A stretch of 46,302 nt of DNA from Gammaproteobacteria bacterium. GTDB lineage: Bacteria; Pseudomonadota; Gammaproteobacteria; JAHELT01. The stretch lies in the NCBI GenBank assembly GCA_029861595.1, contig JAOTYY010000002.1, forward strand, positions 1 through 46,302, read 5' to 3'. This document shows positions 27,335-29,327 of this stretch, piece by piece. Each line of letters begins with the position of its first letter. Position 1 is the stretch's first letter. The notes under the pieces are model-generated. The model did no database searches and was not told the origin of the DNA. It saw only the letters and a program-made list of their open reading frames with translations. The position numbers were made by a program, and so were the translations under genes.

Positions 27335-27384
27335 ATATCCGACTAAAGAAGTCGGATATTAGCAGCCGCGGAGCGGCAGGTCGA
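27335..27384 (-). promoter_or_regulatory. Predicted folE2 promoter with IscR type 1-like operator
   Basis: On the minus strand TCGACC (27379-27384) and TAATAT (27356-27361) are 17 bases apart. A 25-bp inverted repeat (27335-27359) has halves ATATCCGACT and AAGTCGGATAT. It matches 21 of 25 positions of the published IscR type 1 consensus (half-sites ATASYYGACT and AGTCRRSTAT). It overlaps the -10 box and the predicted start site and lies 17-41 bases before the folE2 ATG, a position suited to repression. Confidence 0.6.
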
Positions 27385-27419: not shown

Positions 27420-29327
27420 CTAGCTGGAGGCCGACAAGGCGCTCAACGGCGTGGCGCTCTCGAGATCGTGCAGCAGCTGCTGTACGCTGGCGAGCAGGCC
27501 GGCGCGATCAAGGCCGCACTCTGCCAGCATTTCCTCGCGTGAGGCGTGTTCGACGAATCGGTCGGGTAGGCCGAGGTTGTGCACGGGCACGGCGATGTTG
27601 TGCCGCATCAGGCTTTCGTTGACGGCACTGCCAGCGCCACCGGCGACCGCGTTGTCTTCTATAGTCACCAGCAGTGCATGTTCGCGTGCCGCCTGCAGGA
27701 TTGCCGCTTCGTCCAGCGGTTTTATGAAGCGCATATTGATCAATGTTGCATCAAGTTGCTCAGCGACCGCGTGGGCGTCGGGAACCACTGCACCGAATCC
27801 CAGCAGCGCTACCCGGCGACCGTGTCGCCGTACCTGGGCGCGGCCAATCGGTACGCCCGTCATCGGCGCCTGCACCGTCACACCCGGGCCGCAGCCGCGC
27901 GGGTAGCGAACCGATGCCGGGCCCGGATGCTGAAACCCTGTGTAAAGCATCTGCCGGCATTCGTTCTCATCGGCCGGCGCCATGATTACGATCCCGGGTA
28001 GGCAGCGCATGAAGCTGAAATCAAAACTGCCCGCATGGGTGGGTCCATCGGGACCGACCACGCCGGCCCGGTCGATGGCGAACAGGACGTCCAGGTCCTG
28101 TAGCACGACGTCATGCACCAGTTGATCGTAAGCGCGCTGCAGGAACGTGGAATAGATTGCCACCACCGGCTTGGCGCCATCTACCGCCAGGCCAGCGGCC
28201 AGGGTAACCGCGTGCTGCTCGGCAATGCCGACGTCGAAATAACGGTCCGGGTAGGCGCCCGAGAAATCGACCAGTCCCGAACCTTCGCGCATCGCCGGTG
28301 TGATACCGATCAATCGCTCATCGCGAGCGGCCATGTCGCACAGCCATTCGCCAAATACCTGCGTGTAACTGGGGCCGGAGGGTTTGCTGGTCGCGAGAGT
28401 CTTGCCGGTTTTCGGGTCCAGCGGACTGATGGCATGCAGGCGCAACGGGTTTTCTTCTGCCAGTTTGTAGCCCTTGCCTTTCTGCGTGACCACGTGCAGC
28501 AAACGCGGCCCGCGCAACTGGCGAAGATTTTTCAACATTTTCAGCAGATTCGGCAGGTCGTGACCATCCACCGGCCCGTAGTAGTTGAAACCGAGTTCCT
28601 CGAACAGGGTGCCTGGCACTACCATGCCTTTCATGTGCTCTTCGACGCGCCGCGCCAGCTCCCACATGGGCGGCATCTTGGAGAGTACTTTTTTGCTGCC
28701 TTCACGGGCACTGGAATACAGTCGCCCGGACAGGATGCGTGCCAGGTACTTGCGCAGTGCGCCGACGTTGGGCGAAATCGACATGTCGTTGTCGTTCAGA
28801 ATCACCAGCATGTCGGCTTCCGCGTCGCCGGCGTGATTGAGTGCCTCAAAAGCAAGCCCGGCGGTCATCGCGCCATCGCCGATCACCGCCACCACCTCAC
28901 GCCGTTCGGCGGTTCGCTGCGCGGCTATCGCCATACCCAGCGCGGCACTGATGGACGTGCTGGAATGGCCCACGCCGAAGGTGTCGTACTCGCTTTCCGA
29001 GCGTTTGGGGAACGGTGCCAACCCGCCCTTGCGACGTATCGTCGCCAGTCGATCGCGGCGCCCGGTGAGTACCTTGTGGGGGTAGGTCTGATGGCCGACA
29101 TCCCAGACCAGGCGGTCATGGGGCGTGTCGAACACTGCGTGCAGCGCCACTGTCAATTCCACCGCGCCCAATCCCGCGCCGAGATGGCCGCCGCTGCGGG
29201 CCACCGATTCGATCACGTACTCGCGAAGTTCATCCGCCAAGGCTACCAGCTTGGCTTCGCTGAACTCGCGCAGCTGTGCCGGCGAGTCCAGGTCGGACAG
29301 CAAGGGGAATTTGGTTTCAGTGCTCAT
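27420..29327 (-). CDS. dxs: 1-deoxy-D-xylulose-5-phosphate synthase
   Basis: A 635-residue thiamine diphosphate enzyme that joins pyruvate and glyceraldehyde 3-phosphate, the first step of the MEP isoprenoid pathway. Motifs in order: [19 protein letters not shown] (with the conserved His), [16 protein letters not shown], the ThDP signature GDGAMTAG ... [12 protein letters not shown], then the transketolase central domain ([15 protein letters not shown]) and the C-terminal domain (VRYPRG, TIEDN). Length is normal (E. coli 620). It follows ispA by 164 bases, in the usual xseB-ispA-dxs order. Confidence 0.98.

Follow-up and report, generated by a model that had tools for sequence, protein, structure and literature searches.

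A candidate IscR type 1 operator precedes folE2 and recurs at folE2 loci of Beta- and Gammaproteobacteria

The window analysed here, meaning the whole stretch of 46,302 nucleotides from a gammaproteobacterial genome, contains folE2 downstream of the co-directional gene dxs (Table 1). A perfect 10-5-10 dyad, with 10-bp arms and a 5-bp spacer, is located between the two genes, and the minus strand at this position reads ATATCCGACTTCTTTAGTCGGATAT. folE2 is regarded as monocistronic, because the next downstream gene is convergent.

Table 1. Features around the start of folE2 (window coordinates). The operator and the promoter together occupy 27335-27384.
Feature	Position	Strand	Basis
folE2, GTP cyclohydrolase IB, 279 aa	26479..27318	-	NF010200, 292.4 bits (cut-off 215)
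Candidate IscR type 1-like operator, perfect dyad ATATCCGACT-TCTTT-AGTCGGATAT	27335..27359	-	Consensus match, genome-wide best match, matrix score
Inferred -10 box TAATAT	27356..27361	-	Sequence; kept in same-genus relative L008
Inferred -35 box TCGACC	27379..27384	-	Sequence; conserved block AATCGACCTGCCGC in L008
dxs, upstream co-directional neighbour, not target	27420..29327	-	TIGR00204, 897.7 bits

Of the 25 positions of the IscR type 1 consensus ATASYYGACTRWWWYAGTCRRSTAT, reportedly that of Giel et al. 2006, the dyad shares 21, while the runner-up 25-mer on either strand of the whole window scores 17. The preliminary description had read the inverted repeat as such a match, and this reading is confirmed. 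With a position weight matrix trained solely on iscR promoter sites from 27 other genomes, the dyad scores 21.6, which falls inside the range of the training sites (17.8-33.5), and the second best site in the window scores 6.7. Degenerate patterns, not the weight matrix, were used for the genome-wide scans. The 18-position core pattern ATANYYGACTNNNNNAGTCRRNTAT has a chance expectation of ~1e-5 per 46 kb and ~1e-3 per 4.3 Mb (arithmetic with uniform bases), and its one perfect match in the 4.33-Mb genome is the folE2 site. Next in rank, with 2 mismatches, comes a site immediately preceding an iscR gene on contig C83. The remaining matches with up to 3 mismatches are all inside long open frames, bar one doubtful case (L184), and a reversed control pattern gives no match in the genome even when 3 mismatches are allowed. 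The 25-base palindrome before folE2, whose product catalyses the first step of folate synthesis, is very probably bound by the iron-sulfur sensor IscR.

The promoter proposed for folE2 consists of TCGACC and TAATAT at a spacing of 17 bp (each hexamer 4/6), with an extended -10 TG (TGC) preceding TAATAT. The -10 box covers the upstream edge of the dyad, with which it shares 4 bp. In L008, the only same-genus relative, AATCGACCTGCCGC and CTGCTAATATCCGAsTyCTTTAGTCGGATATT are conserved and the flanks have diverged, that is, the conserved parts are the TGCTAATAT-plus-dyad block and the -35 block. The call rests on this same-genus conservation, since the promoter is absent from the output of a simple promoter scanner (threshold 9/12). 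The overlap of the repeat with the -10 box of a predicted folE2 promoter, also described earlier, is suggested by the sequence and the same-genus footprint, for a predicted promoter that falls below the scanner threshold. Promoter hexamers adjoin or overlap the site in more than one way: Thiobacillaceae and Chitinilyticum have a TTTACT -35 box within the right half of the site, 17 bp from TATACT/TATAAT. Both layouts, with the -10 box at the left end or the -35 box in the right half, are compatible with repression.

A search for IscR and a matching promoter of its own finds two IscR-type genes in this genome, encoding IscR1 on G000:C83 (L001) and IscR2 on G000:C256 (L002), and one of them carries a site at its start. 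Both proteins have the CX5CX5C motif and a following histidine; the cluster-ligand stretch of IscR1 is RCSGLENCQDGERCLTH. Their scores against the IscR model TIGR02010 are 204.4 bits (IscR1) and 186.6 bits (IscR2), both below the NCBIfam cut-off of 207.55. TIGR02010 is the best family of IscR1 despite the score just under the cut-off, and IscR1 has a PDB match in E. coli IscR. The site just before the iscR start on C83, ATTCCTGACTGAATTAGTCGGGTAA, agrees with the type 1 consensus at 23 of 25 positions, and no type 1 site is found at the promoter of the IscR2 gene. The iscR gene on C83 lies beside a DUF1249-like gene and that on C256 beside trmJ and ndk, neither adjoining isc or suf. The suf genes are divided between G000:C237 (L258) and G000:C354 (L257), with sufB located 82 bp from a contig end and its promoter cut off.

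We scanned the 600 bp preceding folE2 at 166 distinct beta- and gammaproteobacterial loci with the iscR-promoter matrix, taking a score of ≥15 as a site; relatedness was handled by removing near-identical upstream regions alone. Sites are present in 82 of the 166 upstream regions, so that conservation extends to about half of the relatives sampled, and neither shuffled regions (0/1660) nor regions downstream of folE2 (0/409) give any. The matrix remedied an undercount obtained in relatives with the E. coli-style consensus alone, which arose because Betaproteobacteria use GAGT...ACTC cores. The site-bearing lineages include Methylophilaceae, Thiobacillaceae, Hydrogenophilales, Sulfurimicrobium, Thauera, Oryzomicrobium, Chitinilyticum, and several gammaproteobacterial families. 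In one genome of a different family (G027), folE2 and iscR provide the only two matches at ≤2 mismatches.

Sub-threshold variant palindromes resembling the same operator, such as TAACCCGAGTTGTTTACTCGGGATT, are observed upstream of folE2 in L057, L072, L210, L214, and L226, and the site count is therefore probably too low. About half of the folE2 upstream regions have no recognisable site, though IscR is present in most of those genomes, and the link between folE2 and IscR would therefore be lineage-dependent. IscR is found in all 30 site-bearing genomes tested, and 5 of the 35 genomes chosen as site-negative have no convincing IscR, a weak difference (one-sided Fisher p = 0.04).

The position of the site relative to the surrounding genes varies. 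In the dxs-folE2 order common in Betaproteobacteria, the site overlaps the dxs stop codon. It is retained at folE2 where dxs is replaced upstream by ispA (L060, L045, and L056) or by fliR (L081). In the dxs-queD-folE2 arrangement, the site is located upstream of queD, at -420 to -475 relative to folE2, and none lies directly before folE2, suggesting control of a queD-folE2 unit. Several Gammaproteobacteria (L146, L144, L145, L136, L131, L078, L083, and L086) have the site before queD, 400-480 bp upstream of folE2. Because it tracks the folE2 (or queD-folE2) transcription unit through these rearrangements, the site is assigned to that unit. The connection to dxs and the MEP pathway drawn in the preliminary description is not supported, as the site lies downstream of dxs, persists without it, and travels with queD-folE2.

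Besides folE2, two zinc-type folE1 genes are present in the genome, at G000:C27:2194-2727 (L148) and G000:C8:559-1092 (L149), and no IscR-like site is found upstream of either. folE1 is absent from 21 of 32 site-bearing genomes checked, many of them incomplete metagenome assemblies, and FolE2 would therefore be the sole GTP cyclohydrolase I there. At G188:C1:1737658-1738350, an intact folE2 is followed by C-terminal folE2 fragments in tandem, some of which contain stops.

The palindrome might instead form an RNA hairpin, as a terminator of dxs or a leader element of folE2. The predicted RNA fold of the dyad in this genome is good (-13 kcal/mol), and the dyad follows dxs, at whose stop codon it lies in Betaproteobacteria. 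However, the folE2 dyad shows no terminator, no T-run (a mean of 2.2 T in the 8 nucleotides after the sites), and no Rfam match, and the site also occurs where dxs is absent. Of the 82 sites, 40-50 have mismatches at pairs 4/22, 5/21, and 6/20, where a YY/RR operator pattern is kept instead, and conservation across these sites falls off at the edges of the 25-mer. A conserved RNA hairpin is ruled out because the half-site mismatches show that pairing is not kept, and we consider the hairpin explanation very unlikely. It is unlikely that the site serves another member of the Rrf2 family (RirA-, NsrR-, or SufR-like, or the second IscR paralogue) whose motif is similar. Such regulators are available, since the genome has two IscR-like proteins and many relatives have other Rrf2 proteins, but the matrix built from iscR promoters alone fits the folE2 sites, IscR1 and IscR2 fit the IscR model much better than those of RirA or NsrR, and the promoter of the second paralogue carries no type 1 site.

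A role of the site in Zur binding, as at many folE2 genes, is scarcely conceivable. Zur is known to control folE2 (PMC2770081, PMC10882993), but the best match to the Zur box TGTTATANTATAACA upstream of this folE2 covers 8 of the 14 defined positions, and the best among 70 other folE2 upstream regions covers 10 of 14. A chance or non-functional repeat would be in keeping with a single site, but the genome-wide expectation for the core pattern (~0.001), the footprint of palindrome and promoter within the genus, and the frequency in relatives compared with shuffles (82/166 vs 0/1660) make this highly improbable. A terminator, an Rfam element, a Zur box (≤8/14 here), and chance were all rejected.

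The preferred explanation, that [2Fe-2S]-IscR represses folE2 at this operator and that cluster loss derepresses it, is likely. The reading given in the preliminary description is supported: of its refuting conditions, the absence of iscR from the genome and the lack of conservation in relatives were checked by computation, and neither holds. Type 1 sites are bound only by cluster-bearing IscR and are released on cluster oxidation or loss (PMC12594620). With an ample supply of Fe-S clusters, [2Fe-2S]-IscR would occupy the dyad across the -10 box and the start region, giving repression of folE2. Cluster loss or oxidation under iron limitation, oxidative stress, or high demand would release IscR from its type 1 sites and allow folE2 to be expressed. 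More of a metal-promiscuous GTP cyclohydrolase would then be made, and the higher FolE2 level at low Fe-S status would offset poorer metallation, which we infer to be the physiological reason. A second benefit may be the supply of folate for YgfZ/IBA57-dependent Fe-S maturation and of precursor for queuosine. QueE and QueG, later enzymes of queuosine synthesis, are Fe-S proteins.

The folE2 site shares its 25-bp type 1 motif with the E. coli iscR/isc promoter, and the iscR gene of this genome likewise carries a type 1-like site, as in E. coli iscR autoregulation. The inferred overlap with the core promoter at folE2 also fits repression by [2Fe-2S]-IscR as at iscR/isc. Unlike iscR/isc, the target is an enzyme for folate and queuosine precursors and not Fe-S assembly, with one predicted site. 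The Zur-regulated folE2 genes of Bacillus, Pseudomonas, and Cupriavidus (folE_IB2) place the same enzyme family under a metal-homeostasis repressor. The regulator, motif, and signal proposed here differ (Fe-S status, not zinc), and site-bearing genomes, unlike in the Zur systems, often have no zinc-dependent FolE1 to be replaced.

In Cupriavidus metallidurans, the FolE_IB enzymes contain iron on isolation, Fe, Mn, and Co activate them, and sensitivity to H2O2 is greater for FolE_IB1 than for FolE_IA (PMC10882993). folE_IB1 of this species also encodes a metal-promiscuous FolE2 outside Zur control, with a regulator stated as unknown (PMC10882993). It differs in that chelators do not induce it: folE_IB1-lacZ shows no rise but a 31% fall with dipyridyl (PMC10882993). 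This non-induction would count against a universal rule. Proteome data for Burkholderia thailandensis show about equal drops of IscU and of a FolE2 (BTH_II0615) in stationary phase (PMC12322963), a parallel fall that is consistent with co-regulation and no evidence for it.

A search of the open PMC literature found no paper naming both folE2 and IscR, and the titles and abstracts of papers on IscR with GTP cyclohydrolase, queD, or folate mention no such link. In the cited work, folE2 regulation is zinc-dependent (Zur) or unknown, and nothing else (PMC2770081, PMC10882993). The regulator and the type of site are already known, whereas folE2 as an IscR target appears to be new, and recurrence of the site at about half of the sampled folE2 genes points to a hitherto unreported connection of folate supply with iron-sulfur status.

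In a wider proposal, for and against which we find the case evenly balanced, folE2 (with queD where present) would belong to the IscR regulon widely across Beta- and Gammaproteobacteria. Fe-S status would then set the committed step toward tetrahydrofolate and the queuosine precursor, often through the sole GTP cyclohydrolase I, and the purpose would be to keep up folate when iron-loaded FolE2 fails, feeding folate-dependent Fe-S repair (YgfZ/IBA57) and those queuosine-pathway enzymes that are Fe-S proteins. If this is true, folE2 induction is predicted under iron limitation and redox stress, and culturable methylotrophs and thiobacilli are among the site-bearers. One-carbon metabolism and the tRNA queuosine supply would be tied to Fe-S homeostasis, which would bear on why many species depend on metal-promiscuous FolE2 alone.
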